58,614 nucleotides of DNA, from positions 1 to 58,614 of the forward strand of contig CADBBH010000013.1 of NCBI GenBank assembly GCA_902792905.1, in the 5' to 3' direction. The notes under the pieces were generated by a model, which saw nothing but the letters and a program-made list of their open reading frames with translations, ran no database searches and was not told the origin of the DNA. The translations under genes and the position numbers were made by a program. Below are positions 2,850 through 20,781 of the stretch, in pieces; the stretch's first letter is position 1, and the number at the start of each line of letters is the position of its first letter. The stretch is from Oscillospiraceae bacterium (GTDB taxonomy: Bacteria; Bacillota; Clostridia; Oscillospirales; Acutalibacteraceae).

Positions 2850-5800
2850 TTAATAATTAATGGTAATCTGTTTCCATTTAAAGAGATTGAACAGGAAGTT
2901 ACTAAAGAATGAAATCAGCTTTGCAAAGAATCCGGCATCAACTTTCACGGTAAGTGTTGCAGAGTCAAGAGCCTTGGTTCCCTGTCTGACTTCAATCATA
3001 ATATTCTTTGTAGATGATACCTGACCGATGTCCGCAGAATATGTGTTGCCGTTTATTGTTGCTTCTTTGCCGTCAATATAGACTTTTGCTCCCGAAGGAA
3101 CATTGTTAAGCGTTACATTTACCGTAACAATTGTCTTGTAAGCAGCAGATTGTTCTCTGAAGTTTGCCGGAAGCTTATACTCTGAATCCGAACTGAGTTT
3201 TGTTCCTTCGGCAGTTCTGGTGTTGCCGGTTGCGCCGCAGTGCGAGCAAACTTCGGTTTCCGTGCCGTCTTTTTCGGTTGTAGCATCGTTGTTGTACTTA
3301 TAACTGAACTGATGTCCATCAAACAGACAGTCAAGCGTTTCGTTGGTTACGCTCTCATCAATTTCTTCTGCAGTGAAAACATAGTAGCTGAACGATGTGC
3401 ACTTGACTATGATGTAATCGCCGTCAACAGCATAAGCACATTTCTCGGTTCCTCCGTTTGCAAGGTAATGGATAATATTGATTGCTTTACCTTGGTTCAG
3501 CGAATTCTGACAGTTTGCAGTAAGTGATGAAATCGGAACCCGAATATACAGATACTGGTTCTCATCGAGGTTATGTATCTCCCCGCCGTTTACATCGTTG
3601 TGAAGGTCAAAAGACGCCACAGTGCTGTTGCCGTATCCCCACCGGCCGTAGGAACCTGTGTTTGCAGTCTTAAATGTCAGTATATTATCTTCGCTGTACG
3701 GACACTCCGTGCAGAAAATGTGGGTTATGGTTGCCGAATAGGTTTCATAAACCGTTGTTTCAAGCTTATGCTCACAAGCAGGCAGCGTTTCGGTATAGCT
3801 TTCGCCACAGGAGCAGATATAGGTTATCTTTCTGCTTTCGGTGCAGAGCCCAGTTGAAGAAACTTTCTTGAAATTATGAGTATGCTCACTGAACAGAGCT
3901 GTGTATTCAAGATCGAGGTAACCCATATAAGCTTCTGTGCTCGGTGACCAGCCGGTGAAGACTTTATCTGCAACATTAACCTCGGGAGGAGTAATCATCT
4001 CTCCCGTTGCATAGGTCTGAGTTATGGTTTCGTCACCTATATGCCAGATAACCGTCTTATCCTTTTCACCCAAATCGGCATAATACTTTGCAACTCTGCT
4101 GCTGACTTTTGTGCCCTCGGGAATTGTCCAGGCGGCATAATCACATACGGGAGCAACGATTTCATCACCTATGTTCATTTCGCGGATTTCGTATGTTTCG
4201 TTTCCTGTGATGAACTCAACAATACATTTGTTGCCGTCAATGGTGACTGTGGGTGAAATGAAGGTCGCTACAGTGCATCCGCCGACTATTACACCCGCCT
4301 CATCCGTATTGGTCAGGTAATCGCCCGCATTGATTGCATTTTCATTGGGGGTGACATCAAACGAGACATCTGCCTTCCAGCCCTGCTGAACATTGGTTGA
4401 GTCATAATACGCATAGGGTGTAATGTTCCTGGCCTCGATGTATGTTGTGCCGTCATCGCGTCTGTCAACAGTAATATCACTGTTTGTGATACCGTATTTG
4501 GCAATCATATTTTCACGGAAAGATTTTTCCTGAGGAACAGTCATTGTGAATTCTCTCTTGACTGTATCATAGAGAGTGACCGCGCCGAAGTTCAGCGTCT
4601 TGGCAACGCTTCTGACATAGATATTCTCAAATATCTTCTGAAGGGCGTTTTCGTCTCTTACAGTAAGGAAATATCCGTTGTTGCTGCCTTCATCAAGATG
4701 CCATATGGATGAAGCATACTTGTAGTTTGAGGAAGTCGCATGCAGGAACTTGTTGAAATTGCTTGTGGTATCGGTGGGATTTGCTTTATCGCTGATAGCT
4801 ATTGAATAAACTGTCACGCCTTGCTCTTTGAGATATTTTGAAGATGTTATTGCCTTGTTTGCAACACCTTCATCAAAAATATTCGTGGCAGTGGGTTCAC
4901 CGTCGGTAAGGAAGATTATTACTTTTTTTCTGTCAGACGCATTCTCCGAAAGCACCTTTGCTGCCATATCAAAACCAAGATCAGCTGCTGTTGCGCCTTC
5001 TGCATCGATGTTGTTGATTGCGGCAAGAATATGGCTGTAATTATCCGTTACACTCATAAGAGATTTTTTGTAAGCCGATTCTGCATTAGGATATGAAACC
5101 GGTCTGTCATTAACCGTAGTAAGGACTTCCGAGTTTTCATAATCAATATAATCACCGCTCCATTCTTTTGGCTTTGTACTTGAAGCAAAACCGACTATTG
5201 ATATTCTATGATCGGCACCGGTTTCTTCCGCGTTTTGTTTTACTGAGTTTACAAAGCTAGTAGCAGTATTGACAAGGTAGTCTCTTCTGCGCTGACCTAC
5301 AGCAGCATTTTCATCTTTGCCCATCTTATATGCCATTGAGCCGGACTGGTCAACGACAAGAACGATATCCAGAGGCTCATTTTCACCGTCAATAAGTATG
5401 CTCTTAGCATCCGAAAATGCGTTGAGTGTAATTGTAACGGCTCCGTCGCCGTTAACATCGGCAGTTTTTTCTGTCTCGATGTCGCCGGTATTATCGGTAT
5501 CTGTAATGGTGTAAATCGCCTTGATAATTATGTCCTCTGTGCCTATGGTGTAGTCTTCCCACTCACCAACATATCCATCTTTTTCGGGAACGGCAGGCTC
5601 TGCTATCGTCGTCTGACCTTCTTCGAATACTACATCCTTAACAACCGCGTATGTCCCTGTTTCATCGGTATATGAACCGTCATTATCGGGAACAACGAAT
5701 GTCGCTGTATGCGTAATTGCGTCAAAGGATGCAACAAACACAAGATTTCTTGCAGGCATCGTCGCGGGTATTTCACCGCTCCAGCCCTTGAATACCTTAC

Positions 5801-8800
5801 CTGCGATTGAAGGATCTTCAGGCCTGATTATCTCCGCACCGAAATTGAAGCTGTCAACAGTTGAACTGCCGTTAACTATCCAGGTTACGGTGTAAGAGTT
5901 AACTGTTGATGTTGCATTTGCTGCTACATTACTTGCCGGCATTTTGCCGTCTTCAAGAGCGGGAGTGAAGGCCCAGTCGGAAACTGTATAACCTTCTTTG
6001 ACCGCCTTTTCTCTCACCGTAACGGGTTCGCCGTAAAGGAAGGCGTCGGATGCGCTCTCGGCATTGGGATAATCTTCGCCGTCAAGTTTGTATGTAACTG
6101 TAAATACTCCATTATCCCAAAGCGCGTTTATTGTTCTGTTCTCTGCGGGCATGGTTGCGGGAATCTCGGCATCCCATTCTCTGAAGATGAATCCGCTGAA
6201 TTCGGGATTTGCCGGAGCGTTGATTTCACTGCCGTATTCAGCTTCGATTTCCTTATATACTGCGCCGCTGTTAACATCGCCGTATGTAAAGGTTAATTTG
6301 TAAGAATTTGCTGAAGATGTCGCATTAGCCACCACATCGCCTGCGGGCATCCTGCCGTCAACAAGAGCGGTTGTGAATTCCCAATCGGATACTGTATATC
6401 CCTCTTTGACAGCAACGGGTCTTACTGTTACTTCGCTGCCGTAGGTGAAGGTGTCAACCGCACTTTCATAAGGTGTTGCGAAATATTCTGCACCGTCAAG
6501 CTTGTATGTGACTTTGTATTCGTTGATTGCCCACAGTGCGCTGATGGTCATATCCTTCGCCGGCATTGTTGCGGGAATCTGTGAATCCCAGCCGAGGAAT
6601 GTATAGCCCTCAAATTCGGGATCGGCAACTTTTTCGATTTCAGTACCGAAATCTTCGGTTATTGTTTTGTATACGGCATTGTCTTTTACTTCGCCATACT
6701 TGAATATGATTGAATACTGCTTGACCGACCATACCGCTATATATTCAATATCTCTGTCGGGAACGGTTTCGGCAACATCAATAACCGTTTCGCCGTCTTC
6801 GCTCCAGCCGAGGAACTCATTACCATCTTTCACGGGATCTTCGGGCTTGACTATCTCATCGCCGTAGTAAAGCTCCTCGGTTGTTGTGTTTGTTCCGTCA
6901 TTGAAGGAGATGTTATGCATGTTTCTGTCAATATAAACTTTGAGAACAAGAGAGCCGTCTGCGGCGATAATGCCTTCAAGTTCGCTCTTGTCTGCATTGA
7001 GTGTAAATCCTTCGGGAACGGTATATTCCGCAGTTGCTGTTTCGCCTGTTGTTCCCTCAGAGTTTTTACTCGTCTTATCATATTCGCCGCTGAGATTCAT
7101 TGTATATGTCTCAACATCATACTTTGTATTGGTTGCAGCGGAGAATGAGCCGTTCAGAACGAGGTTTTCGGCAGGCATCTTTTCGGGCTCTTCGTTGTCC
7201 CAGTCGGAGAATATATATCCCTGTCTGGTAGGCTCATCGAGTTTTGTTACATTGGCATTGTATTCATATGTCTTTTCGTCATATTTCTCGCCGTCAACAT
7301 TGTAGGTTATGGTGTAGCTGTTGATGCTGAATACTGCGATATATTCAACATCTCTGTCGGGAACTGTTTCTTCTACATCAACGACCGTTTCGCCGTCTTC
7401 GCTCCAGCCGATAAAGCCATATCCTTCTTTTTCGGGATTTTCGGGCTTGACTATTTCATCACCATAAACAAGGTCGTCTTTTGTCTTTTCTCCGTCAACA
7501 TTCCAGGTTACGGTATGGGCATTGGGTGAGTATTTCACTGTTACCGCGATATCGTCGGCACCCATTGTGCCTTCAACTGCGGCTGCATCGGGTGTGTATC
7601 CGGTGACCTCGGGTGAGGCGACGCTGTAATCCTTGCCGTATTCAACTGCCTGTGAATATGCCTCAGGTGCAAGCTCATCCTTACCGTCGCTCATTTCATA
7701 CGTGACAGTCAGATTGTAACTGTTTTTAGTTGAAGTTGCGTTTGCAACCACATCACTTGCGGGCATCCTGCCGTCAACAAGAGCGGGAGTGAATGCCCAG
7801 CCTGAAACAGCGTAACCTTCTTTGACTGCGGCGGGTCTTACTGTTACTTCGCTGCCGTAAACTATAGTGTCAACCGCACTATCATAAGGTGTTGCGAAAT
7901 ATTCAACACCGTCAAGCTTGTATGTGATTCTGTATTCGTTGACTGACCACAGCGCGTTTATAATCAAATTCTCGGCAGGCATTGTTGTGGGTATTTCACC
8001 GTCCCAGCCGAGGAAGGTATAGCCCTCAAATTCGGGATCTGTGATTTCGTCAAGCGGCGTTCCGAAATCCTGTGTTACGGTCTTGTAAACCGCATTGTCG
8101 TTGACTTCACCATACTTTAATGTGATAGAGTAGCTGTTGACTGACCACAAAGCAGTATATTCAATGTCTCTGTCTGGCATAGTGGTAACAATATCAGCAA
8201 CGTTCTCGCCGTCTTCACTCCAGCCCAGGAATGTATATCCTTCTTTTTGCGGAATGTAATAATTGCCTATTTCAGTGTCAAAAAAATATTCGTCTGTTAA
8301 TCTAACTGTGCCGTCATCATAAGTGATTCTGTGCTTGTTACGGTCAATATATACTTTTAATATCAATGGATTATACGCATCAGCCGTCCCGCTAAGGACA
8401 CTCAATTCTTCGTTAAGATAAAAACCATCTTCAATTGTATATTCTGCGGTTACAACATCCAACCCGTTTGTTTCAAACTGTTCATCTGAAACCAATTCAT
8501 ATTCGCCGCCGGTATCCATAATATAGGTCTCTACATTATAAGAAGCTATACCTACATACCGCCAATATGCAATCAGTGATAAATCGCTGTCTTTACTATA
8601 AGTCGACCCAGGTAAATATTCTCCCGAAGCTATATTACCAAAGAGTGCTTTTTTTTGCCAATATCTGAATTGATATCCGTATCTCGTAGGAATATCGCTT
8701 GAAAGAGTTATTGACTGACCCTCATATTTTATCTGATAATCCGGTCCGCCTGTTCCTCCGTTAGCATCATATGATATGATGTATGTTCCTTCTTCGCGCT

Positions 8801-10013
8801 TGCTCCAAATAGCATAAAGTGTTATTGTTTCCCCCGAGTATTCGTCATACGGCTGATAGTTAACTTCTGTCGAATCTGCGGATACCGCCCATCCCTCGAA
8901 AATATATCCGCTGTAAGTTGGAATCGAACCGCTAAGTTTTACGGTTTCACCCTCGCAAAAGGTTTGAGTAGCCGGAGCATTTGAACCTCCATTTGCATCA
9001 TAATATATAAACTCAGTTCCTTCCCACACAGCATAGAGAGTCAAATTTGAACATCCGCTGTAGATATCACCCGGTTGGTATTTGGGCGTAGCATAAACAG
9101 TAGATAAATCCGATTTATATTCAGGTATTAATATGGATTTTCCACTGGCAAACGCAGCCTTTGGAGCCCAGCCGAGAAACGTATAGCCTTCCCTAACCGG
9201 AATCTGGGAGCTCAATCTGATTTCTGCATCTGCATATTTAACCTGAGAAGCCGGTGCGCCGGTGCCGCCGTTTGCGTCATATGACACTGTATAAGAATTC
9301 GGAGACCACTGCGCATAGAGAGTAGCGGCAGAGTTTGAAGAATAAATTCCTCCGGGAGCATATGATGTTCCGCTACCATCCACTTTTGTATTCCAATTCA
9401 AAAATGTATATCCTGTCCTATTAGGTTTTGTTGAACTAAGAGTTAAGTTAGTATTCTCAGTCTTAGTCTGAGAGTTGGGAGCACCGCTCCCGCCATTTGC
9501 ATTATATGAAACTTTATATTTAGAAGGAACCCAATCCCAATAACTTGTTGTTGCTGAAGTGGCAATTTCTTTTACATTTGTGTAAACATAACCATTGCAA
9601 TAGATGGTTCCACTCCAAATTATTTTGTCCTCTGTGTTGTTATAAACATTTGAAACCGGACCATTATAATTGCCCTCCAGCCAAACACCATTTTGATAAT
9701 ACTTTTTCCCGTAGCCCATATGATAACCGTTTGAAAAGCCACCGACATAATAAATTGCATTATAGGTATTTCCCAGCCAATGCAATTGATAAATATTGGC
9801 ATCATCATTTGCAAAATACAGAGTTCCTTGCCCATCAGGCAAATAACTGCTATTTACATAACCAGTATATGTTCCGTGGTTCCAACGATACGGATTATAT
9901 CCAACAGTTGCATTTGTGACATAAGTATTCGCGCTTGCAGTAATCGGAAATACCGATAACAACATTAACATTGCCAAAAGCAAGGATAGCACTTTACCTA
10001 TTGTTTTTTTCAT
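2850..10013 (-). CDS. Giant secreted InlB-repeat/vWA surface protein
   Basis: A 2387-aa exported protein. It has a signal peptide (MKKTIGKVLSLLLAMLMLLS..., cut near residue 28), a MORN-like N-terminal part (about 35-150, YYVGGFSNGYHMGYGKKYYQ), some 17 InlB B-type repeats (about 170-1480, GYTFLGW pattern), and a von Willebrand A domain with a MIDAS (VDQSGSM near 1549, LTDGEPT later). Two Cys-pair segments resembling the neighbouring Cys-repeat protein follow, then the shared C-terminal module ending in GFFAKLISFFSNFLFNLFKW. The ribosome site GGAGG precedes the ATG. It is last in a three-gene leftward unit. Role inferred: cell-surface adhesin or ligand binder. No LPXTG motif or SLH domain is seen. 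Confidence 0.9.
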   Translation of the reverse strand: MKKTIGKVLSLLLAMLMLLSVFPITASANTYVTNATVGYNPYRWNHGTYTGYVNSSYLPDGQGTLYFANDDANIYQLHWLGNTYNAIYYVGGFSNGYHMGYGKKYYQNGVWLEGNYNGPVSNVYNNTEDKIIWSGTIYCNGYVYTNVKEIATSATTSYWDWVPSKYKVSYNANGGSGAPNSQTKTENTNLTLSSTKPNRTGYTFLNWNTKVDGSGTSYAPGGIYSSNSAATLYAQWSPNSYTVSYDANGGTGAPASQVKYADAEIRLSSQIPVREGYTFLGWAPKAAFASGKSILIPEYKSDLSTVYATPKYQPGDIYSGCSNLTLYAVWEGTEFIYYDANGGSNAPATQTFCEGETVKLSGSIPTYSGYIFEGWAVSADSTEVNYQPYDEYSGETITLYAIWSKREEGTYIISYDANGGTGGPDYQIKYEGQSITLSSDIPTRYGYQFRYWQKKALFGNIASGEYLPGSTYSKDSDLSLIAYWRYVGIASYNVETYIMDTGGEYELVSDEQFETNGLDVVTAEYTIEDGFYLNEELSVLSGTADAYNPLILKVYIDRNKHRITYDDGTVRLTDEYFFDTEIGNYYIPQKEGYTFLGWSEDGENVADIVTTMPDRDIEYTALWSVNSYSITLKYGEVNDNAVYKTVTQDFGTPLDEITDPEFEGYTFLGWDGEIPTTMPAENLIINALWSVNEYRITYKLDGVEYFATPYDSAVDTIVYGSEVTVRPAAVKEGYAVSGWAFTPALVDGRMPASDVVANATSTKNSYNLTVTYEMSDGKDELAPEAYSQAVEYGKDYSVASPEVTGYTPDAAAVEGTMGADDIAVTVKYSPNAHTVTWNVDGEKTKDDLVYGDEIVKPENPEKEGYGFIGWSEDGETVVDVEETVPDRDVEYIAVFSINSYTITYNVDGEKYDEKTYEYNANVTKLDEPTRQGYIFSDWDNEEPEKMPAENLVLNGSFSAATNTKYDVETYTMNLSGEYDKTSKNSEGTTGETATAEYTVPEGFTLNADKSELEGIIAADGSLVLKVYIDRNMHNISFNDGTNTTTEELYYGDEIVKPEDPVKDGNEFLGWSEDGETVIDVAETVPDRDIEYIAVWSVKQYSIIFKYGEVKDNAVYKTITEDFGTEIEKVADPEFEGYTFLGWDSQIPATMPAKDMTISALWAINEYKVTYKLDGAEYFATPYESAVDTFTYGSEVTVRPVAVKEGYTVSDWEFTTALVDGRMPAGDVVANATSSANSYKLTFTYGDVNSGAVYKEIEAEYGSEINAPANPEFSGFIFREWDAEIPATMPAENRTINALWDNGVFTVTYKLDGEDYPNAESASDAFLYGEPVTVREKAVKEGYTVSDWAFTPALEDGKMPASNVAANATSTVNSYTVTWIVNGSSTVDSFNFGAEIIRPEDPSIAGKVFKGWSGEIPATMPARNLVFVASFDAITHTATFVVPDNDGSYTDETGTYAVVKDVVFEEGQTTIAEPAVPEKDGYVGEWEDYTIGTEDIIIKAIYTITDTDNTGDIETEKTADVNGDGAVTITLNAFSDAKSILIDGENEPLDIVLVVDQSGSMAYKMGKDENAAVGQRRRDYLVNTATSFVNSVKQNAEETGADHRISIVGFASSTKPKEWSGDYIDYENSEVLTTVNDRPVSYPNAESAYKKSLMSVTDNYSHILAAINNIDAEGATAADLGFDMAAKVLSENASDRKKVIIFLTDGEPTATNIFDEGVANKAITSSKYLKEQGVTVYSIAISDKANPTDTTSNFNKFLHATSSNYKYASSIWHLDEGSNNGYFLTVRDENALQKIFENIYVRSVAKTLNFGAVTLYDTVKREFTMTVPQEKSFRENMIAKYGITNSDITVDRRDDGTTYIEARNITPYAYYDSTNVQQGWKADVSFDVTPNENAINAGDYLTNTDEAGVIVGGCTVATFISPTVTIDGNKCIVEFITGNETYEIREMNIGDEIVAPVCDYAAWTIPEGTKVSSRVAKYYADLGEKDKTVIWHIGDETITQTYATGEMITPPEVNVADKVFTGWSPSTEAYMGYLDLEYTALFSEHTHNFKKVSSTGLCTESRKITYICSCGESYTETLPACEHKLETTVYETYSATITHIFCTECPYSEDNILTFKTANTGSYGRWGYGNSTVASFDLHNDVNGGEIHNLDENQYLYIRVPISSLTANCQNSLNQGKAINIIHYLANGGTEKCAYAVDGDYIIVKCTSFSYYVFTAEEIDESVTNETLDCLFDGHQFSYKYNNDATTEKDGTETEVCSHCGATGNTRTAEGTKLSSDSEYKLPANFREQSAAYKTIVTVNVTLNNVPSGAKVYIDGKEATINGNTYSADIGQVSSTKNIMIEVRQGTKALDSATLTVKVDAGFFAKLISFFSNFLFNLFKWKQITINY

Positions 10014-10039
10014 AGTTCAACCTCCATATTCTCTTTGTT

Positions 10040-11572
10040 TTAAGGCTTAACTTCCACTGTTGGTAATCTTCTGAACAGTGCCTTAAAGAAAGCTATTATC
10101 TTTGATAAAAGTCCCGATTTTACATTTATCTCGCAATTCTTGCTGAGTTCTGATCCGCAACCATCTTTCTGAACACTGCCGTTTGCATCAATGATTTTTA
10201 CAGTAAATGTTTTGCTTTCTTTCATTTCTCCAACACTTAAAGAAACTGACTTGTTATCGCCCTTTGCAAGCTGAATATTGCCATCATATATTGCAAGAAC
10301 GTATCCATCAGGAACATTATCAGCAGTTGCGATAACGGTTATTCTTGAACGATAGCTGACAGTTTGAGAAAAAGGCACTCTTAAAACAGTTTTTTCAAAC
10401 GAATCACTTGGATTATAGTGCCAGTTTGCGTTTAATATACCAGCTAGCATATCAAATTCTATTTTATTTCTGTCATTAACGGAGCCGTGATAATACACAT
10501 CTTCCAAATTGTTGCAAAGCACAAAACCCTTATACCCAATTCTTTCAATATTCTTACCTAATGTAACATATTTTAAGTTTTGGCAAGAAAAAAACGCTGC
10601 ATCATCAATTACTTTTACGCTATCAGGAATTTCTATTCCCTCAAGTTTGTTACATCCAGAAAATGCACCTGAGGCAACAATAGTTGTTCCGTCGTTTATT
10701 CTATATTCTCCGCTAATTGATTCTTTTGCTTTTATCAAATAGTTGCTTACATAAAACACATCTTTTTGCCAACAAGATTCATTTTCAAAACAACCTGTGC
10801 CGGCAAAGGCGTAATGCCCTATAGAATCAATACTATCAGGTAAATTAATATTATAAAGAGAGGAACAACCAGAGAAAGCGTAGTTTTCAATCACTCTTAA
10901 TGATTTAGGAAATTTAATACTGCTCAAACTAGCACATCCAAAAAACGAATAAGAAGAAATCTTTGATACTCCTTCAGGTATAACAACATCATTTAACTTT
11001 TGACAATTATCAAACGCACCTTCGCATATACTATTTACACTTTTGGGAATACCAATTCTTGTCAAATTGTAACAATCAAAGAAAGCGTTGGCGCAAATAA
11101 CTTTCGTTCCATCTAGTATTACATATTCACCGCTTATATCTTTTTTTACTTCAACAAGATAGTTACCAATGTATAAAGCGCCGTTTTTCCAATTTTGAGA
11201 ATTATTATAGTAACCGGTATTATAAAAAGCATCACTACCAATACTGGTTAAACTATTGGGCAAATTAATAATCGTAAGATTCTCACAGTTTTCGAATGCA
11301 GAAAAAGCGATTTCTGTAATTCCATCTTCAATAATCAGAGTTTTGATACTATTACTGCTTTCAAGCCACGGATACTCCTCGGGCCTTTCTTCCTTTCCAG
11401 TACCATACATTGGCCCGGAGCCGGAAATGGTAAGAGTTCCATTGCTGGATATATTCCACAACAAGTCGTCGTATTTATGCCATTTAATACTATCGGCAAA
11501 TGAAACAAAAGAATAATTGCTTAACAGTAGGCAAACGAATAAAACTACAAGTAATCTCTTTAGTTTAATCAT
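10040..11572 (-). CDS. Secreted BspA-like leucine-rich repeat protein
   Basis: About 510 aa. The ATG at 11572 is chosen over a TTG at 11581 because the GGAGGAG site sits almost on top of the TTG. A signal peptide (to about residue 27) is followed by some ten BspA/Treponema-type LRR units (IxxxAFxxCxxLxxIxIPxSV pattern, residues 55-390) and the shared C-terminal module (VSYRSRITVIATADNVPDGY... KSGLLSKIIAFFKALFRRLP). Its stop lies 26 bp before the giant vWA protein gene and its start 38 bp after the CAP protein gene, so the three form one unit. BspA-type LRR proteins bind host matrix or other cells; that role is inferred here. Confidence 0.88.
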   Translation of the reverse strand: MIKLKRLLVVLFVCLLLSNYSFVSFADSIKWHKYDDLLWNISSNGTLTISGSGPMYGTGKEERPEEYPWLESSNSIKTLIIEDGITEIAFSAFENCENLTIINLPNSLTSIGSDAFYNTGYYNNSQNWKNGALYIGNYLVEVKKDISGEYVILDGTKVICANAFFDCYNLTRIGIPKSVNSICEGAFDNCQKLNDVVIPEGVSKISSYSFFGCASLSSIKFPKSLRVIENYAFSGCSSLYNINLPDSIDSIGHYAFAGTGCFENESCWQKDVFYVSNYLIKAKESISGEYRINDGTTIVASGAFSGCNKLEGIEIPDSVKVIDDAAFFSCQNLKYVTLGKNIERIGYKGFVLCNNLEDVYYHGSVNDRNKIEFDMLAGILNANWHYNPSDSFEKTVLRVPFSQTVSYRSRITVIATADNVPDGYVLAIYDGNIQLAKGDNKSVSLSVGEMKESKTFTVKIIDANGSVQKDGCGSELSKNCEINVKSGLLSKIIAFFKALFRRLPTVEVKP

Positions 11573-11609
11573 TTTAGCCAATCTCCTCCTTCATAGGTAG
11601 ATTGATAAA

Positions 11610-13532
11610 TCAAGGCTTTATTTCCACAGACGGGAGTTTCTTGAACAGAGCCTTGAAAAAAGCAACAAGTTTGTTGAAAAATCCGGATTTAACAATCACA
11701 GCACAGGGTTTACACAGTTCCGCACCGTTACCGTCTTTTTGAACATTTCCGTTTGAATCAATAACCTTTATTGTGAACGTTCTGCTTTCACGCATCTCTC
11801 CGGCATTATATAAAACTGACTTGTTATCGCCTTTTGCAAGTTGAGCGTTACCATCGCAAATAATAAGTGAATAGCCTTCGGGAACATTTTCTGCCGTAGC
11901 TGTGACTGTAATTCTTGAGCGGTAACTCACGGTTGAACCTGATCTGACATTCAGTGTTGCAGCCAATGTAGGATTCTCTATAGGTTCATCAGTATCGGGA
12001 GAATCACACCTCCACACAGCATATAGAGATTTATTTGAAGTAAGATTAAAGCTGCTTCCGGCGCTGTATTGCGCGGATGTTGAGTTTGAATATGTTGACC
12101 ACCCAAGAAAAGTATAGCCGCTTCTTGTGGGCTTGATGCTTGATAGTGTAATATATCCATTACCCGTTTGTGCTGAGGGCGCACCGCTTCCGCCGTTGGC
12201 ATTATATGTTAAACTATATGTGACCGGCACTGAACCGCTCGAGACCGAAACCGCTATAGACACCTTACCGGCGACGCATTCACCAGTCAACACAGCATTT
12301 CCGGTTCCTACGGCTTTAACGTTTCCTGAAGAAACGGTTGCAACCAATGTATTGTTGCTGGACCATGTGCAATTTTGCAATGACGAGAAAGTGTTGTGGG
12401 GAGTAACAGATATTATTAATTGCTGTGAGACAGTTGGTAAAGCAGATGTTTCTCCTTTTTCAAGCGAAAGACTGCTGTAAGATGTTGATAGCGTTCTCGA
12501 TGAAATCATTTTATCAAGGACGGTAACCGAAACCGTTTTAGCACTGTCGTTAGCCGTTGTAACGGTAGTGCTTACTGTGGGTCTTCTGAATTCCTGAACC
12601 CAGTATTTTCTACCATTATACTCAGCGCAACCGATTCCGACAGCCGTATATCCCGAAGAAAGCATATTTCTTCTGTGGCCCTGACCATCATACATCTCAG
12701 TTGCTTCTTCCCACGCAGTCTGCACCTGAGAAGCCGAAGTTTGACCATAGGCAATGTTTTCACCTGCGTATGATGAGGAATAAGCTGTAAAACAACTCTC
12801 GCCGTTGGGGCGCGTATGAGCATAATATACAGCTAATTCTGCCGCTCTCTGCATCGCCGCTTTTTCAAGATTATAATCATATACCAGCGCACTTAGCCCG
12901 CTGCAAGTGATTTTTTTACTATTATCGGCATTCCAATACCAGGCATCGCTCCCCGTTCTCAGGGAATTTATACGACTCAGTATAGAGCGGGCTTCTGTTT
13001 GATGATAAGTCACGGAAAATGTTAATGAGCTTGAATCCAATACGCTTGAATCAATAATATTACCAGTAAAAGAAGTGTATTTTTTATTTATTGCTTTTAC
13101 CATTTCGGTCATACTTGATGAATAATCGGTTGCTTTGTAGATTTCAACTGTTTTATTATCAATAAATAAAACATAAGGAAGAATTCCACCGCTTAAATAC
13201 TCATATAACCAGCCTGGAAGATAATAATTATCGTCTCTGTCACAATTAAGACCAAATACTTTTGTGCCGCAATCCATCCAGAGTTCAAGGCTGTAATTAC
13301 CAACAAAATATGAGTTATAACAAGTATCCGGTCTGTAATAATATACAATAAACTTGTCACCACTATTATACTTCGTGTTCACTTCCGAAACACTTGAATC
13401 TATCCAATTATCATTTTCCTGAAAGTTACTGTCAAATTGTGCGTCAGAAGCATATGATTTAAATGCAAACAAATTGCCTGCTACCAGAAAAATAGTTAAA
13501 GCCATTACAATAGCTCTTTTTATAAATTTCAT
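11610..13532 (-). CDS. Secreted CAP/SCP-domain protein with thioredoxin-like N-terminus
   Basis: 640 aa with a signal peptide (about 1-29). Residues 45-155 resemble a thioredoxin fold (DKFIVYYYRPDTCYNSYF, then LPYVLFIDNKTVEIYKATD), but the usual CxxC is absent. Residues 185-325 are a CAP/SCP-PR1 domain (AAELAVYYAHTRPNG, AGENIAYG, GQGHRRNMLSSGY). Then come a BIG2-like Ig domain (about 375-435), one InlB B-repeat (about 440-515) and the shared C-terminal module (KSGFFNKLVAFFKALFKKLP). The gene has an AGGAG site before its ATG and its own possible promoter upstream. The C-terminal DNA is closely similar to that of the next gene, which suggests module duplication. Confidence 0.88.
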   Translation of the reverse strand: MKFIKRAIVMALTIFLVAGNLFAFKSYASDAQFDSNFQENDNWIDSSVSEVNTKYNSGDKFIVYYYRPDTCYNSYFVGNYSLELWMDCGTKVFGLNCDRDDNYYLPGWLYEYLSGGILPYVLFIDNKTVEIYKATDYSSSMTEMVKAINKKYTSFTGNIIDSSVLDSSSLTFSVTYHQTEARSILSRINSLRTGSDAWYWNADNSKKITCSGLSALVYDYNLEKAAMQRAAELAVYYAHTRPNGESCFTAYSSSYAGENIAYGQTSASQVQTAWEEATEMYDGQGHRRNMLSSGYTAVGIGCAEYNGRKYWVQEFRRPTVSTTVTTANDSAKTVSVTVLDKMISSRTLSTSYSSLSLEKGETSALPTVSQQLIISVTPHNTFSSLQNCTWSSNNTLVATVSSGNVKAVGTGNAVLTGECVAGKVSIAVSVSSGSVPVTYSLTYNANGGSGAPSAQTGNGYITLSSIKPTRSGYTFLGWSTYSNSTSAQYSAGSSFNLTSNKSLYAVWRCDSPDTDEPIENPTLAATLNVRSGSTVSYRSRITVTATAENVPEGYSLIICDGNAQLAKGDNKSVLYNAGEMRESRTFTIKVIDSNGNVQKDGNGAELCKPCAVIVKSGFFNKLVAFFKALFKKLPSVEIKP

Positions 13533-13561
13533 TGTGTTTCTCCTAAAAAGCCATTCTTCAT

Positions 13562-13590: not shown

Positions 13591-13599
13591 AGCAAACCC

Positions 13600-13626: not shown

Positions 13627-13659
13627 ATAGATTTAATATATGCAATAAATATATTTTCT

Positions 13660-16600
13660 TTACGGTTCTAAAACAACCTCTTTTGATCCTCTTCCAAACA
13701 GGATTCTGAAGAAATAAATCAATCTGCTTATAAATCCGGTATTCACCTTTATTTCCTTGGAAGCAGTTATACTATCACCGTTTTTATCTTTGGCAAGATT
13801 GCCGCTCTCATCAACGACCATATAATTTAATCTGACAGTTCCGCTTCTGAGGATACCGATACTTACGGAAGAACCATCTGTATAAACAGACCCGTTGTTT
13901 TCTGCTCTAAGTCTGTAACCTTCCGGCAATCCTTCACATGTTGCTTTAACCGTTACATTTGACGCATAAGGAACCGTATCATCTTTACAGACATTTATAT
14001 TTATATCTTTCACGATACACGAGCATTCTTTACATACGCCTTTTCCGTTATCCGTATGAGCATTCTTGTCTTTCGGTGTTGTTTTTGATTCGCGGCTTAT
14101 TTCTTTGTTGCATTCGTTGCAATAGATGACGGAATCATAAGAGCCTGCTTTAGAGCAAGTAGCAGGAATTATATTTTCTTTTACAGCGGCTTTTGGGGTA
14201 TGTGCTTTCGTATCTGTCGGAATTACCTTTGTCTGTTCTTTGAGTTCCTTGTTATCAAACGCCGCAGTAAATACTTTCTCGCCTTTTTCAGTGCAAGTAG
14301 CATCTTTCGTTATTTTGGCAGAAACCTTGCCGCTGATTTCGTCAGTTTGCGAGCAATTATCATTCTTGCATTTTACGGCAGCGGTGCAGACAGTATTGTC
14401 CCCATTCCATTTATATTCGGCATTTACATAATCCCAATCGTGACCTTTTGCCTGAATGGGCTGCTCGCTTTCAGGTTTAACCTCACTGCATCTGGAACAT
14501 ATAATCCTGTCGTATCCTGCTTCGGTGCAGGTTGCATCTTTATGGTCAGACTTTGTAAAGTCATGACCGAGCGCATTTGTTTCAACAGACTCAGTTTGGG
14601 CTTTAAGCTGCTCGTTTTCAAATGCAGCGGTATATTCGGTTGTTCCTGTTTCGGTGCAGGTTGCCGCCTTTGTGACTTCGGAAGTGACAGTGCCGTTGAT
14701 TTTGTCTTCTTGCGTGCAGTTTTCATTATTGCACTTCACAGCAGCGACACAAGCGGAATAATCGTCATTCCATTTGTATTCGGCATTTTCATAATCCCAG
14801 CTATGGCCGGTTGCCGGGATGGGGATTTCTTTTTCATCGCCTTTTTGGGCCAGCTCTTCCTCGTCAAATGTTGCGGTTATCTTCTTCTTGCCGTCAACCG
14901 TGCAAGTAGGATCGGAAACGATAACTTCTTTTATTTTTGCAATTACGGTTTCAGTGTGATTGCTTTCTCTCTTGCATGTCAGGGTAGCGGTATATGCGCT
15001 GTTATTTTCATTCCATGCGCAGGCAGCATTTTCATAGTCCCAATCATGACCGAGCGCGGGAGTGATTTCGCCCTTCTCTGTTTTCTCACATCTGGTGCAC
15101 TTATACTCTTTATATCCCTCTTTTTCACAAGTCGGTTTATAAGTTGTTTCTTCCCAGTCGTGTCCGAGCTTGCTTATGGTTCTTGTATCAAGAATAGTTT
15201 TGCAGTCCGGGCAGTAGTATTCTTCTTCGCCGTTTTCGGTGCAGGTCGCTTCCTTCTTTACTCTCCAATCGGCATTTGCATGATTGATTTTAGGAAGTGT
15301 CTTAACATTGAATTCCTCTTTGCAGCGATTGCAATAATCATATTCTCTGCCGTCTTCAGTGCAGGTAGCGGGATCAGTTTCGTGTTTTAAGTCGTGCCCT
15401 AAAGCTGCAGTAGTTTCAATATGAACGGATTCATAACCGCAACCCTCAACCTTACAGCGCTGATAAGTGTAGCCTTTCTCTGTGCAGGTTGCACTCCGAT
15501 TCACAGTCTCGAGATCGTGCTCCGATCTTGCAGGAACCTCTATTTCTCTGGTAGCGCCGCATACCGTGCATTTTTTGACGGCTGTGCCTCCACCCTCAAT
15601 ACAGGATCTAGCTTTTTCGAGTTCATAATTATGGCCAGTTGATGCTTTGGGCGTATTCGAAAGCACTTTTCCGCAATCATTACAAACTACTTTTTCATAT
15701 CCGTCTTCGGTGCAGGTTGCTTCTTTAATCTCTGTTTTTTTATGTATATGATTATCGGGATTAATTTGTAAAATCTGTGTTATCTGGTTACCGTCTGCAT
15801 CAACAATCGGCTCCCGGCATTTTTTGCAAATGAGTATTTTGCTTCCTGTTTCAGAGCAGGTAGCCTTGGGATCTGTTTTATATTCGGTTTCATAATATCC
15901 TAAAGTATGAACCGGAATTGCTTCAGACCACTCGATGAATTCGCAGCCCTCTCTGGTGCACTTGTTGTATTTTTCTCCCGCTTTTTCACAGGTCGGAGGA
16001 TTAACACCCTCCTTCATATCGTGTCCGAGTGCAGGAATAGTATTGATTATTTCCTTCTTTGCGCAATATGCGCATTCCTGATAAATCTCACCGCTTTCAG
16101 TGCAGGTAGCTTCGCGGGTCTTTTCTTCGCCGAAGTTATGCTCCGTTGCAGTCACAGTTCTAAGGAGCTTCTCACAATAGGAACACATAACTGTATATTC
16201 CGCGCCCTCTTCGCCGCACTCTTTTTCGGAAGGTATAATTATTTCATACGCCTTGTGAATATCAGGATCGGCCTGCGGCTCGGGGTCGCTGACCCGACCG
16301 CATTTTTTACAGGTTTTAGCCCAATCGCGGGTTTCCTCGGTATGATTCTCGTGTCCTTTGCCCTCGAGCGGCTGAAGTTCACCCCAATCATGAGCTTCGT
16401 CAAGAATCTTTCCCTGCTTGCTCAAAACGCCGCAATTTTTACAATAGCAATCGCCTTCATAGCCGCCATCGCAGTCAGCCTTTTTTGCGTTTTTCGGTGA
16501 GCCGTCTTCGTGCATATGGCCGGAATAAACTCTGATAGTAATTCCGGTATTCATTCCGTCCCAAGCATCTTTTGTGCCGCCGAAATAAATAGCAGTCACG

Positions 16601-17037
16601 CCGATAACAATACCGTTTTCATTAAGATTAAAAGCATTCTTGCTGATTGACTCAACCGATGCCGGGATATAAATCTTGGAAATACCGATTCCCTTGAATG
16701 CGCCATCGGGGATAGCTGTAACACCATCCATGACAGAAACCTGCTTGATTTCGTCAAGATACTCATTCCAGGGCATTTTGCCGTCTTCTGCGACAGCAAA
16801 GTCGTCGGTGATGACAAGCTCTCCGTCAATATAGAGCGCCCAGCCTTCGCCGCAGACGGGGTTTCCGTCTTCATCCTTCATAATGTTCTCGTCAATTTTC
16901 TGCTCAGGAGAAAACGATTCGGCAGCATAAGTATCAACCAACGCGAGCAGGCTGCCTAAGCCCAGCCCGCCGGTAATGCCGACCATCATGATGAGAGTCA
17001 TCACGACGGCAATGAATTTTTTACATGTCTTTTTCAT
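13660..17037 (-). CDS. Secreted LRR protein with long array of cysteine-pair repeats
   Basis: About 1125 aa. The start at 17037 is chosen because AAAAGGAG lies just upstream and the signal peptide (MKKTCKKFIAVVMTLIMMVG) begins there. A short BspA-like LRR part (residues 60-150) is followed by about 14 repeats of roughly 40 residues with the pattern ATCTExGxxxxxCxxCG...ALGHDW, and three longer 80-residue variants (about 650-1000). Each repeat has two or more Cys, many as CxxC, suggesting metal knuckles or disulfides. It ends with the shared module (NTGFISRLIYFFRILFGRG). It lies between two terminator-like hairpins, so it is probably its own transcript. The exact function is unknown. Confidence 0.85.
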   Translation of the reverse strand: MKKTCKKFIAVVMTLIMMVGITGGLGLGSLLALVDTYAAESFSPEQKIDENIMKDEDGNPVCGEGWALYIDGELVITDDFAVAEDGKMPWNEYLDEIKQVSVMDGVTAIPDGAFKGIGISKIYIPASVESISKNAFNLNENGIVIGVTAIYFGGTKDAWDGMNTGITIRVYSGHMHEDGSPKNAKKADCDGGYEGDCYCKNCGVLSKQGKILDEAHDWGELQPLEGKGHENHTEETRDWAKTCKKCGRVSDPEPQADPDIHKAYEIIIPSEKECGEEGAEYTVMCSYCEKLLRTVTATEHNFGEEKTREATCTESGEIYQECAYCAKKEIINTIPALGHDMKEGVNPPTCEKAGEKYNKCTREGCEFIEWSEAIPVHTLGYYETEYKTDPKATCSETGSKILICKKCREPIVDADGNQITQILQINPDNHIHKKTEIKEATCTEDGYEKVVCNDCGKVLSNTPKASTGHNYELEKARSCIEGGGTAVKKCTVCGATREIEVPARSEHDLETVNRSATCTEKGYTYQRCKVEGCGYESVHIETTAALGHDLKHETDPATCTEDGREYDYCNRCKEEFNVKTLPKINHANADWRVKKEATCTENGEEEYYCPDCKTILDTRTISKLGHDWEETTYKPTCEKEGYKEYKCTRCEKTEKGEITPALGHDWDYENAACAWNENNSAYTATLTCKRESNHTETVIAKIKEVIVSDPTCTVDGKKKITATFDEEELAQKGDEKEIPIPATGHSWDYENAEYKWNDDYSACVAAVKCNNENCTQEDKINGTVTSEVTKAATCTETGTTEYTAAFENEQLKAQTESVETNALGHDFTKSDHKDATCTEAGYDRIICSRCSEVKPESEQPIQAKGHDWDYVNAEYKWNGDNTVCTAAVKCKNDNCSQTDEISGKVSAKITKDATCTEKGEKVFTAAFDNKELKEQTKVIPTDTKAHTPKAAVKENIIPATCSKAGSYDSVIYCNECNKEISRESKTTPKDKNAHTDNGKGVCKECSCIVKDININVCKDDTVPYASNVTVKATCEGLPEGYRLRAENNGSVYTDGSSVSIGILRSGTVRLNYMVVDESGNLAKDKNGDSITASKEIKVNTGFISRLIYFFRILFGRGSKEVVLEP

Positions 17038-17188
17038 AAAATAACTCCTTTTCCGGGAGGCGCACTCCACATCGACGCTTCCGAATAATAATATCCCATA
17101 AGAATTGGATACATATAATATGATATATATAATTCTCGTTTTATTCATATTTTTAAAAAAATAAATAAAAGAATCAAATTAAGAAAAA

Positions 17189-17219
17189 CGGCAGCCATGA
17201 CGATGAATCACGGCTGCCG
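17189..17219 (-). terminator. Intrinsic terminator of the sigma/LRR-FIVAR unit
   Basis: Stem CGGCAGCC...GGCTGCCG (extended by TGA/TCA across one mismatch). On the minus strand it is followed by TTTTTCTTAATTT. It lies 26 bp past the stop of the LRR-FIVAR gene. Confidence 0.8.
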
Positions 17220-17244
17220 AAATAAGGCTTATTTGAAAATATAA

Positions 17245-20200
17245 TTATCCTTTTATTTCTTGTTCAGGGAGCATCCTGAACAGTGCTTTGAAAAACGCAA
17301 TAATCCTTACAAAGAAACCGGATTTTACAGATACGGTAAAATCAGATTTTAAGAGCTTTCCGTTTTTGTCCACAATTATTTTACTCGATTTGTCAATTAT
17401 TTTGACCGTAAAGCTCTGTGATTCTTTCATTTCTCCGGCGCTGTACTTAGCCGAGCTTTTACCTCTCGCCAGAGTCTTGCCACCAGATGAAATAACAACA
17501 GAGCAGTCATCAGGCACATTTTCGGCTTCAACATAAATTGTAACAATGGTTCTGTAATTAACTAATGCACCGGAAGGTGCTTTCAAAATAATATCAGCAT
17601 TCTGAGTAATATCCGGATTGACAGAATCGTTTACGGTTATAACCGTAGAAACGGATTTTGTTACACCGTTGAATGTATAGTAAACATTAAGCGGTCTTGT
17701 GCCAATTGTGTTTGTATCAACAGAAATATCATAGTCTTCAACTACCACACTTCTGCCGTCGCTGAAGAAAGCGGTAATAATCATTCCTTTGCGGCTGAAT
17801 GATTCGCCCTGAGTATATACAGTCTTGGATGGCAGAGAAGAAATAACAATGCCTTCAAGAATTGTTTCAATCTCTAAAACAGCAAACTCACTGAAATGAT
17901 CGGTTTCAAACACGATGTAATCGCCGTCAAGTGTAGAGGTGAATTTTACGAGCGGATCAACGGGGTCATCCGTAACATGATAAACCTTGCATTTCTCAGG
18001 TGAAACGCCGTCGGGGATTCTGATTTTAACGGTTACTGCGCCGTCCGGCTGAACTTTTATGCTGTTGCGAATCAGAGAAATATCATAATACAGCGCGGTT
18101 TTCACCTTGCCGCCGACTGCAAAATTGGCGCTCGCGATATTTGATGGGTCAAGCTGTTCCACAGTCAGGGAAGTAGTGGGATAAATCTCCCGTGCCGTCG
18201 CGCCGACTATTATTCCGTGAGTATCGTTGCGAAGAGTGACTGCCGCATATTCAAGCGAATGGATTTTATCCATTATCGTCTGAGCATATGCATTGACCGT
18301 CGCCTGCTGAGTGATATTCAGATTGCGGTCAACCGAGTTTATCGCCTGGTCGAGTATGGCAAGCGAAGCGGCGCTCCACAGAATGCGGTCAATATTTCCG
18401 GCTGCGGCAATCGCGCTATCTACATCGCCATAGTCAGCCGGCAGATACACAAGATTGTCAACGGCATTGTTTATTGCCGCGGCGTAGGTCGCTACAGTCT
18501 GCTGATTTGCATATGTCAGAGAATAATCGACTGCGGCAACGGCTTCATCTATATCCGCAAGGCTCTCGGCAGTAAAGAAATCTCTGTTTATTGAATTTGC
18601 CCTCTGAATTGCCGCTTCTACATCCGAATAATCCGCCGCTTTTGCGATAAGCGCGCTTATTGCGAGGTCAATGCTTGAAGCAAACGCGTTGACTTTGCTC
18701 TGATATGTAATATCAAGCCCGTATTCCACGCTCTGCAGAGCGGAATCGAGATTTGCAAGCGACTGTTCGGTATAATAATTGCGGTTGACGGCAAGCGCTC
18801 TGGAAATTGCAGCGTTTACTGCCGAATAATTTGCTTCTCTGTAAATGAGAGAATCCACAGCGGAATTAATATCCGCGGCAAGAGAATCTACCGCCGCCTG
18901 CTGTGTAATATTTGCGCTGTAGTCGACGCTCAGAACGAGCGCATCAAGCGCAAGCAGTGAATCCGCGGTATAAAGCGAACGGGTTACGGCATTTGCTCTT
19001 GCGAGCGCCTCACTGATTGCAGTGAAATCGGCAGGCAGATACTCGAGAGCGGAGAGAGCGTTATTTATCGCATCCGTCCACTCGTCAACCTGTTCCTGGG
19101 TGAGATCAACTTTGCTCAAATCGACTTGAGACAGTGCATTATCAAGGCGCCTGAGAGATTCGCTTGTATATAAAGTTCTATCAATTATGTCAGCATTATT
19201 GATTGCAGAATTCAGACTATACAGCATCAAATCATTATTGCGCAAATAATCGTAGTTAATATTGTTTGCTTCACAGTATTCCTGAATTGCCGAACTGGGA
19301 TAACATTTCAAAATAAATTTAGAATTCCATGCAGTATTACCGATTGACGTTCCCGTAAATTTCAAAGTCATCGAACGAACGATTACGGTATCAGGATTAC
19401 TTTGATTGAAAGCGTATTTTTCAACTTCGGGTGAAGAATATCCGAAGTCAATGGTTTTGACTCCGCAGCCTTTGAATGCCCAACCTCGGACTTTTTGCAA
19501 GTCATTGGGCAACACTATACTTTCGACGCTTGTAAAAGCTTCTTCAGCAATTATTTTAACACTGTCCGGAACAATGAATGTTGTTGTTTCCGGAACTCTG
19601 ACCAATAGATCTCTTGATTTGCTGTATACTGTCCCGTCCGCATCCGAACAGTAAAACATATTCTCCTGAGAAATAATGAATCGGAAATTAAAAGAACTGC
19701 TGTTTCCTATATAAGCAAAATCTTTGCCGAGATATATTTCTCCGTTCACTTTATAACGACAGTGAAAAGCCCAAGAACCTATGTATTGAATATCAGGTAA
19801 AGAAATATTTGATTGTTGTGATACTTGTTTTGAACAGGCAAATGCATAAACTCCTATATATATGGCTTTTGAGCCCTCTTCAAAAACAATATCTTTCACA
19901 TCGGTGAGATCAAATGCATCCCAACCGATATATTCAACACTTGCAGGTATCGTAACCGAATTGTTTGACACTTTTTGATATGCAGCTCTTTCTGAAATAG
20001 ATACGGTTCCCTCCCGAATGACAAAATCCCAATCATCCAAGCTGAATTCACCTATATATTTGTGAAAACATTTTCCTATATAGAGAGGCCCGTATTCCTG
20101 ATTATCAAGCCAAGGAGTATCCTCAAAAGCATTTCCGCTGACATATTCTATGCTGTCCGGAAAGATTACATTTGTCAGATTAGATTGCCCCTTGAAAGCA

Positions 20201-20781
20201 CTCGGACCGATTCCCAAAGTTCCGGGAGTTATCTTATAATTTGCTCCCTGCGACGCGGATATACTGCCTTTATATCCGACAAGGAACTTTCCAAGATAAA
20301 CTAAACCTCCGCCCTGTGAAGAATACCAACGCGTATTGCACAAAGAACGCTCATAATAATACTCGGTGCTGGAAATAAAGGTTAATACATTATTAGCAGG
20401 TATTGTTATTGATGAAAAAGAATTGCTCAACAACCCCAAAAATCTCAGGGTTGAAGGCAGTTTCAGCGTTTGGGCTTTTTTGCAGTATGAAAGAGTATAT
20501 TCCCCGATTCGGGTAATCCCTTCGCCGACAATGACGGTTTTTATAGCATCATTATAGTTTGCCCATGGAACTTCCGAGGTGAACGAGGAGTTAAAATCAT
20601 ATGTGCTTCCCGTTCCCGAAATAGTCAGAGTATATGTATTTACGTCGTAGTCCCACGTCGCGTTATTTCCGCACTTGAAATCAATCGCCGCATCGGCATT
20701 CAAACTCAGCTCCGGCAGAGCAAAAGAAAGCGCACCGAAGCAAATGAGAATTGCAAGAGTGAGTGATATTATTCTTTTCAT
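17245..20781 (-). CDS. Secreted LRR-FIVAR-Ig surface protein
   Basis: About 1178 aa. I place the start at 20781 (MKRIISLTLAILICFGAL) because AGAGG lies 7 nt upstream; an in-frame ATG at 20796 overlaps the sigma-gene stop as ATGA and would add five residues. Order of parts: signal peptide (1-31), BspA-like LRRs (about 35-515), five FIVAR-type helical repeats of roughly 68 residues (about 530-870, LYTADSLLALDALVLSVDYS type), a beta-rich ZU5-like part ending HFSEFAVLE, a group-3-type bacterial Ig domain (VYTQGESFSRKGMIITAFF), and the shared C-terminal module (KSGFFVRIIAFFKALFRMLP). It is coupled to the sigma-LRR gene. Role inferred: surface adhesin. Confidence 0.87.
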   Translation of the reverse strand: MKRIISLTLAILICFGALSFALPELSLNADAAIDFKCGNNATWDYDVNTYTLTISGTGSTYDFNSSFTSEVPWANYNDAIKTVIVGEGITRIGEYTLSYCKKAQTLKLPSTLRFLGLLSNSFSSITIPANNVLTFISSTEYYYERSLCNTRWYSSQGGGLVYLGKFLVGYKGSISASQGANYKITPGTLGIGPSAFKGQSNLTNVIFPDSIEYVSGNAFEDTPWLDNQEYGPLYIGKCFHKYIGEFSLDDWDFVIREGTVSISERAAYQKVSNNSVTIPASVEYIGWDAFDLTDVKDIVFEEGSKAIYIGVYAFACSKQVSQQSNISLPDIQYIGSWAFHCRYKVNGEIYLGKDFAYIGNSSSFNFRFIISQENMFYCSDADGTVYSKSRDLLVRVPETTTFIVPDSVKIIAEEAFTSVESIVLPNDLQKVRGWAFKGCGVKTIDFGYSSPEVEKYAFNQSNPDTVIVRSMTLKFTGTSIGNTAWNSKFILKCYPSSAIQEYCEANNINYDYLRNNDLMLYSLNSAINNADIIDRTLYTSESLRRLDNALSQVDLSKVDLTQEQVDEWTDAINNALSALEYLPADFTAISEALARANAVTRSLYTADSLLALDALVLSVDYSANITQQAAVDSLAADINSAVDSLIYREANYSAVNAAISRALAVNRNYYTEQSLANLDSALQSVEYGLDITYQSKVNAFASSIDLAISALIAKAADYSDVEAAIQRANSINRDFFTAESLADIDEAVAAVDYSLTYANQQTVATYAAAINNAVDNLVYLPADYGDVDSAIAAAGNIDRILWSAASLAILDQAINSVDRNLNITQQATVNAYAQTIMDKIHSLEYAAVTLRNDTHGIIVGATAREIYPTTSLTVEQLDPSNIASANFAVGGKVKTALYYDISLIRNSIKVQPDGAVTVKIRIPDGVSPEKCKVYHVTDDPVDPLVKFTSTLDGDYIVFETDHFSEFAVLEIETILEGIVISSLPSKTVYTQGESFSRKGMIITAFFSDGRSVVVEDYDISVDTNTIGTRPLNVYYTFNGVTKSVSTVITVNDSVNPDITQNADIILKAPSGALVNYRTIVTIYVEAENVPDDCSVVISSGGKTLARGKSSAKYSAGEMKESQSFTVKIIDKSSKIIVDKNGKLLKSDFTVSVKSGFFVRIIAFFKALFRMLPEQEIKG

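Follow-up and report, generated by a model that had tools for sequence, protein, structure and literature searches.

The window analysed here is a 58,614-nt stretch of contig CADBBH010000013.1 from the 2.07-Mb assembly GCA_902792905.1 of an Oscillospiraceae bacterium (~84% complete; hereafter the source genome). Between positions 2850 and 20796 it carries five adjacent minus-strand genes encoding secreted proteins, the final ~100 residues of which align and form a C-terminal module, namely, an immunoglobulin (Ig)-like domain of ~80–100 residues followed by an 18-residue, Phe-rich amphipathic helix. A first-pass annotation of the bare sequence had pointed to this common tail and suggested that it is a sorting or anchoring signal; the open reading frames (ORFs) and the tails that it described were confirmed. 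The features are as follows; the profiles include copies from the source genome, every profile E-value in the list belongs to a sequence that is itself a row of the profile, and these values are therefore partly circular, for which reason single-query E-values are given separately.

2850..10013, minus strand: secreted protein of 2387 residues with List_Bact repeats, a vWA domain and the tail (ORF, Pfam)
2880..2933, minus strand: helix of the vWA/List_Bact-repeat protein (GFF...NLF, the sub-type with a longer hydrophobic end; translation; helix profile E = 9.9e-10)
2934..3161, minus strand: Ig-like part of the vWA-protein tail, the most diverged copy (profile match 2859-3161, E = 7.2e-27; single-query E = 1.4e-3)
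10040..11581, minus strand: secreted LRR_5 protein with the tail, 513 residues (ORF, Pfam)
10061..10114, minus strand: amphipathic helix of the LRR protein (translation; helix profile E = 1.9e-14)
10115..10393, minus strand: Ig-like part of the LRR-protein tail (single-query and profile match)
11610..13532, minus strand: secreted CAP-domain protein with a List_Bact repeat and the tail, 640 residues (ORF, Pfam)
11631..11684, minus strand: amphipathic helix of the CAP protein (helix profile, translation; residues 101-112 are helical in the model of the 123-residue module)
11685..11981, minus strand: Ig-like part of the CAP-protein tail (structure model)
13660..17148, minus strand: Cys-repeat protein, 1162 residues (the ORF begins upstream of the likely start; signal peptide apparently from MKKTCKKF, by eye)
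13684..13737, minus strand: amphipathic helix of the Cys-repeat protein, diverged (translation; helix profile E = 1.8e-11)
13738..14010, minus strand: Ig-like part of the Cys-repeat-protein tail (single-query and profile match)
17245..20796, minus strand: secreted LRR_5/Big_3 protein with the tail, 1183 residues (ORF, Pfam)
17266..17319, minus strand: amphipathic helix of the LRR/Big_3 protein (translation; helix profile E = 1.5e-14)
17320..17598, minus strand: Ig-like part of the LRR/Big_3-protein tail (single-query and profile match)

When the tail of the CAP protein was used as a single query against the source genome, it retrieved the other four window tails with E = 9.8e-47, 1.1e-26, 1.5e-12 and 1.4e-3, and these values bear out the earlier ranking of the giant vWA protein as the carrier of the most diverged tail, with the Cys-repeat protein next. 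Recent gene conversion among the window tails was considered and rejected, their DNA identity being only 60-69%. Other parts of the original description held less well. The regions in front of the tails had been called completely different, whereas three of the five proteins have LRR_5 (one of them with a score under the curated cut-off) and two share the List_Bact repeat; among the front domains that had been named, vWA, CAP and LRR were recovered by Pfam, but FIVAR was not found up to E = 0.1 and the Cys repeats had no Pfam match. The short end VEIKP, given as an example of how the tails finish, is typical of a single sub-type only.

The source genome as a whole contains many more copies. 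The CAP-tail query gave 24 matches at E <= 1, all of them C-terminal, and a helix-only profile of 30 positions, which was also searched in the order and in 397 other genomes of the phylum, found 25 places, one of them within a 30-residue frame. In the main sub-type, the Ig-like beta part is followed by GFFxKIIAFFKxLFxxLP and a short end; the other sub-types have a longer GFFAKLISFFSNFLFNLFKWK end, or GFMDKLKWFFSDFWNNIFKAVIDAIIK, or, in one of the 24 proteins, no Ig part at all, the helix standing directly after a Cys motif. This Cys-motif/helix variant, used as a query in 147 genomes of the order, returned only the source genome and one weak match containing a stop. The tail is linked to export: 22 of the 24 tail proteins pass a strict sequence rule for signal peptides, as against 31 of 145 other ORFs called mechanically in the same stretches, which may include non-genes (Fisher p = 3.7e-11); a looser rule, passed by 63 of 123 control ORFs, had been replaced. 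At E <= 0.001, the 24 proteins match 24 Pfam families, with List_Bact repeats in 12 proteins, LRR_5 in nine, DUF6273 in three, and CAP, vWA, subtilase, DUF4838, ubiquitin, SH3, pectate-lyase-like and other domains once each. In the secreted protein with the ubiquitin domain (L038:6050-7927, contig C9), which ends in the longer tail sub-type, this domain is the likely mature N-terminus and is identical to ubiquitin chains in the PDB at 63 of 74 residues; its gene looks like an acquisition from a eukaryote.

The part of the tail that the first-pass annotation called beta-rich gave no confident family match, yet the structure model of the CAP-tail module (123 residues) is an Ig-like beta-sandwich with a mean predicted local distance difference test score (pLDDT) of 96.7; as modelled, this is an Ig-like fold, that is, a fold and not a family. 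Pfam searches with the tails of the five window proteins gave no match up to E = 0.1, including Big_*, fn3 and PKD, and those with 56 module sequences no confident match (best E = 0.0016, fn3 in two members, with 25 of 64 families listed). NCBIfam likewise yielded no confident match for the tails or the 56 modules, and the best sequence match in the PDB, a phage decoration protein, reached only E = 0.029. Compared with bacterial Ig-like domains, the module differs by the additional helix and a strand following it, and by the lack of a confident Pfam match.

A profile built from 20 copies of the source genome detected the module in 36 of the 37 genus genomes examined (out of 45, the source genome included), with 1 to 41 copies each, compared with a single borderline match (E = 0.0095) among 23 other genomes. 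Across 295 genomes of the order, three matched: the source genome, a member of another genus of the same family with a clear C-terminal copy (G253), and a third with a weak match short of the helix. A scan of an 84,980-species collection, seeded by a pattern within the helix, yielded 67 loci, all from assemblies titled as uncultured Clostridia-type organisms and many from assemblies with goat, sheep, buffalo, roe-deer or horse names; in 66 of the 67 the tail match ends no more than 28 residues from the stop codon. Searching phage records with a short tail peptide gave none, and 222 pattern matches in viral contigs included none that could be confirmed. Together, the profile search of the genus and these loci substantiate the expectation that the tail recurs at the C-terminus of many proteins; it extends well beyond the window cluster and is thus not peculiar to one set of neighbouring paralogues, and it gave no confident match to a known anchor or Ig family.

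Within the module, the helix is the more constrained part. Conservation was measured on copies of the source genome only, because the database loci had been found via a pattern inside the helix; among 20 of these modules, the mean pairwise identity is 54% in the helix and 28% in the Ig part, and the helix is the better conserved of the two in 180 of 190 pairs. On a hand-drawn helical wheel of the main type, nine bulky hydrophobic positions occupy one face and Lys/Arg the opposite one. The 24 tails have a mean hydrophobic moment of 0.62 (0.46-0.72, best 18 residues) and a mean hydrophobicity of 0.77; the scales used were those of Fauchere-Pliska, Wimley-White and Kyte-Doolittle. Of 5000 shuffles of the helix letters, 2 to 4 reached the moment of the main type, and 8 and 12 did so for two other sub-types.

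The CAP proteins of the genus show what happens at this end of the protein when the Ig domain is missing. A query with the first 430 residues of the window CAP protein retrieved 16 CAP genes, its own among them, from 13 of the 45 genus genomes; four are cut by contig ends, and all 12 that are readable end in an F/W-rich helix as judged by eye. By the same kind of inspection, the Ig-like part precedes the helix in eight of them and is absent from four (L266, L273, L274 and L277/L287, the last being a second CAP gene of the source genome). A fixed numerical helix rule is passed by 10 of the 12 genus CAP ends and by 1 of 24 CAP relatives from other genera of the same order (p = 2.7e-6), relatives that diverge further from the query than do the genus genes and that represent 24 of 29 fetched loci (one cut by a contig end, four without a frame found), 11 further rows having no locus; in the only relative that passes, the helix lies at the end of the CAP domain itself. 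Two of these relatives have, at the C-terminus, a dockerin and SLH repeats, respectively, in place of the helix. In a model of the Ig-less CAP protein of the source genome, the CAP domain is folded and a 23-residue helix (pLDDT ~60) stands apart from it, the two being joined by a linker at pLDDT 30-36. As the helix is found in CAP orthologues with or without the Ig domain, a C-terminal amphipathic helix appears to be what is kept at this position.

Helices of comparable form are known from membrane-associated proteins. Searched against 397 other genomes of the phylum, the helix profile gave 18 weak matches (E from 7e-4 to 1e-2), six of which, including the top four and spanning four families, fall at the very C-terminus of FtsA, the identity of these proteins being confirmed at E <= 2.6e-100. 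This end is the location of the FtsA membrane targeting sequence, and FtsA acts on the cytosolic side of the membrane. Passages of a published study describe lipid binding by FtsA with a hydrophobic contribution (PMC3384640). FtsA thus shares with the tail a C-terminal F/W/K-rich amphipathic helix but has no Ig domain, and the resemblance is convergent rather than a sign of kinship. The tail of PBP5 (DacA) from E. coli MG1655, an exported protein, is alike in form, and with a moment of 0.62 and a hydrophobicity of 0.77 it equals the mean of the 24 tails; it differs in belonging to one enzyme family rather than to a module on many fronts, whereas here an Ig-like domain is involved, in a Clostridia-type lineage, with up to 41 copies per genome. 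Profile scores led us to reject homology of the helix with either FtsA or PBP5, the likeness being one of form and not of descent, and the PBP5 C-terminal domain family is not among the 24 Pfam families found in the tail proteins at E <= 0.001. In the source genome (G000) itself, no protein scored above the FtsA cut-off and only two weak actin-family matches were seen; either FtsA was lost in the 84%-complete assembly or another Z-ring tether is used instead.

The absence of LPXTG, SLH, choline-binding or other recognised anchors, remarked upon from the outset, agrees with the motif and Pfam searches. No LPXTG-like motif occurs in the last 45 residues of the 24 tail proteins, the last 60 residues containing one LPATG that lies inside a Cys repeat; no lipobox of the usual pattern was found in the 24, and 3 of 53 database proteins have one. 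Neither the window tails (up to E = 0.1) nor the 24 proteins (E <= 0.001) gave a Pfam match to SLH, choline/cell-wall-binding or dockerin domains. Under equal rules, a lipobox or terminal LPXTG is present in 0 of 24 tail proteins and in 4 of 31 other proteins passing the strict signal-peptide rule (p = 0.12), and with a looser lipobox the counts become 2 of 24 and 11 of 31 (p = 0.026), so that avoidance of other anchors by tail proteins is a tendency only. Like SLH, dockerin, LPXTG and lipobox anchors, the tail would be a swappable attachment element on different fronts, but it contains no such domain or motif.

Taken together, these observations suggest, with somewhat better than even confidence on our part, that the tail anchors exported proteins to the membrane by their C-terminus, the working element being the helix, which would lie in plane in the outer leaflet of the cytoplasmic membrane. 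In this scheme, an N-terminal signal peptide, supported by the sequence rules, would direct export, after which the ~80-100 residues preceding the helix would fold into the modelled Ig-like domain. The final ~18 residues would then form an amphipathic helix embedded in plane in the outer leaflet, its Phe/Ile/Leu face turned to the lipid and its Lys/Arg residues to the surface, much as E. coli PBP5 is held by its own C-terminal helix. This would keep the variable fronts (LRR, CAP, vWA, List_Bact, subtilase, pectate-lyase-like and others) at the cell without lipidation, a sortase or a wall-binding domain; the Ig domain would be an adaptor, dispensable in some orthologues, and the helix the working part. 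Of the sorting or anchoring signal proposed initially, the common C-terminal element, its association with export, its different fronts and its genus-wide spread all stand, no dedicated partner was seen among the 14 largest clusters of neighbouring genes, and anchoring itself is a prediction.

A number of observations weigh against this membrane anchor, and the first of them fit a structural role. In the model of the module, the helix and the short strand that follows it are both placed on the Ig domain at pLDDT 96-97, so the hydrophobic face of the helix may be partly buried there, and the conserved hydrophobic residues I74, V80 and L89 lie outside the usual core pattern, which would be in keeping with a docked helix. 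The helix could accordingly be a part of the Ig-like domain, either a cap or a dimerisation surface, and the module a stalk or assembly domain working off the membrane. We consider this unlikely, given that 4 of the 12 readable CAP orthologues keep the helix without the Ig domain, in one case modelled behind a disordered linker, and that conservation is much higher in the helix than in the domain supposedly capped by it.

Further points on the same side concern the strength of amphipathicity as an argument. In a fourth sub-type (GFMDKLKWFF..., four copies in the source genome, outside the window), the moment of the helix was reached by 185 of 5000 shuffles, and two CAP ends (L281 and L282) are weaker, failing the fixed rule with a moment of only 0.39. 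The parallels with known membrane helices are loose: PBP5 scores only 2.0 bits with the helix profile (1 of 43 shuffles scored higher), 7 of 26 FtsA ends score above the 99th percentile of shuffles, and order-wide there are four weak matches outside the family, none seen to be FtsA as far as they are readable and one an internal FtsK-like stretch (by eye). Besides, the DacA of the source genome, considered as a possible counterpart of PBP5, has a transmembrane-like tail and was dismissed. A terminal amphipathic helix is present in 5 of 31 other strict-rule signal-peptide proteins of this genome and in 15 of 114 other ORFs; since these proportions are similar, the idea that such helices terminate exported proteins throughout the genome was rejected. 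Individual cases occur: two secreted proteins of the source genome, L175:6613-9981 (minus strand) and L287:2183-3100 (plus strand), end in F/L-rich helices of another kind without the Ig part of the tail, and in the window, the secreted products of 30905-32488 (minus strand, weakly hydrolase-like) and 28805-29980 (minus strand, alkaline phosphatase) have C-terminal amphipathic stretches of their own.

The remaining difficulties bear on whether the helix is recognised rather than acting by itself. The main-type helix is stricter than amphipathicity alone requires, with Phe at position 10 in 20 of 20 copies and at positions 2 and 14 in 19 of 20. Replacement of the helix by unrelated ones rests on few cases, because L266 alone scores at noise level with the helix profile (equalled by 70 of 200 shuffles), whereas in L277 (1 of 200) and L273 (6 of 200), from which L274 differs by a single residue, a weak trace of the main sequence is left, so that these may be the same helix minus the Ig part. 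The strictly conserved Phe residues, this trace in two of the Ig-less ends that were compared, the very C-terminal position in 66 of 67 loci and the near restriction to one genus, as expected of a lineage-specific machine, would all suit a sorting signal read by dedicated machinery that retains, processes or attaches the protein, in the manner of LPXTG and sortase or of PEP-CTERM. The neighbourhoods of the tail genes argue otherwise. When 544 ORFs around 84 loci were clustered and the 14 largest clusters inspected, with labels assigned by eye, they comprised surface proteins (14 loci), extracytoplasmic function (ECF) sigma factors (7), transporter-like proteins (7) and smaller groups; no processing or anchoring enzyme is apparent among these clusters, although a partner encoded elsewhere in the genome would be missed, and the co-occurring gene of this kind that had been anticipated thus did not materialise. 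A sortase is present in 42 of 45 genus genomes, and one sortase locus of the source genome is accompanied by ordinary LPXTG pilins (by eye). The replacement helix of L266, devoid of any trace of the motif, and one internal copy of the tail among the 67 loci are also at odds with a recognised terminus. The internal copy, the only one seen, lies in a 1671-residue frame (L288/L082, contig C5 of genome G030), in which a List_Bact-like repeat (by eye) and one more domain come after the Ig-like part and helix. We accordingly rate a dedicated sorting signal as decidedly improbable. The choice between a physical action of the helix and a recognised signal is less clear-cut: it is kept without the Ig domain, yet most of the Ig-less CAP ends retain a weak sequence trace.

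An altogether different possibility is that the tail attacks membranes as an antimicrobial or lytic peptide, which is released or displayed rather than used as an anchor. The helix is Phe-rich, amphipathic and, in many copies, cationic, and 23 of 56 modules weakly resemble the NCBIfam model of the epsilon phenol-soluble modulin (best E = 0.018, not significant). These matches are too weak for membership in the phenol-soluble modulins, and the tail belongs to large proteins: it sits on two dozen different ones in a single genome, likely enzymes included, and the net charge is zero or negative in several variants. Neither a processing site nor an immunity gene was seen, although these were not searched for systematically. 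Such a role seems to us very remote.

Upstream of the five genes lies an ORF that may pertain to the regulation of some tail proteins.

20793..22535, minus strand: ECF sigma factor fused to a hydrophobic segment, an S/T/P-rich linker and LRRs (its end overlaps the start of ORF 17245-20796 by 4 bases)

Relatives of this fused sigma factor (L095, L099, L101, L102 and L121) have a hydrophobic segment, a Thr-rich linker and a small, extracellular-looking end domain, and at E <= 1e-25 a relative is present in 30 of 45 genus genomes. Distances to tail genes were taken for 20 of 75 sigma matches, namely, every one in 11 genomes, from stop-to-stop frames and among the tail matches listed: for at least 13 of the 20 fused sigma genes, a tail gene lies on the same strand no more than 250 bases away, in 12 cases downstream. 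The actinobacterial ECF52 group is of similar build; passages of its description give a sigma factor, a zinc finger, a transmembrane part and a carbohydrate-binding domain, with release by proteolysis proposed (PMC5826349). This neighbourhood suggests regulation of some tail proteins and not anchoring chemistry. The cluster is flanked by genes for a Mob/Pre plasmid recombination enzyme (14-1282, minus strand) and a large serine recombinase (22820-24541, plus strand), and serine recombinases are close to tail genes in L083 and L091, too; the tail-gene cluster may be a mobile element itself or the neighbour of one.

A broader and more tentative proposal, which we find doubtful as a whole, joins these strands: the genus would use C-terminal amphipathic helices, mostly on a lineage-specific Ig-like adaptor, as its main enzyme- and lipid-free anchor for large exported proteins, replacing SLH, dockerin, lipobox and LPXTG, and, in several operons, a membrane-spanning ECF sigma factor would be co-encoded with a tail protein acting as its sensor partner. 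The anchored protein would adjoin the extracellular part of the sigma factor and could therefore serve in this capacity.

No description fitting such an anchor was found by literature searches, as judged from titles and the beginnings of abstracts, although two of the papers returned, on palindromic amphipathic repeats in Mollicutes (PMC2996958) and on the corynebacterial surface (PMC12021427), may have a bearing on it. A 2018 review of surface display in monoderms names integral proteins, lipoproteins, LPXTG proteins and wall-binding proteins (PMC5817068), and a term search of that main text gave none of 'amphipathic', 'monotopic' and 'in-plane'. If the anchor is real, dozens of enzymes and adhesin-like proteins are displayed in an uncultured gut lineage of Clostridia by means that escape the family models tried, and such proteins would be filed as 'secreted, no anchor'. 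In-plane anchoring, of which PBP5 is an example among individual enzymes, would then be usable as a general, swappable surface-display module, with the Ig-like domain and helix together making a compact tag.

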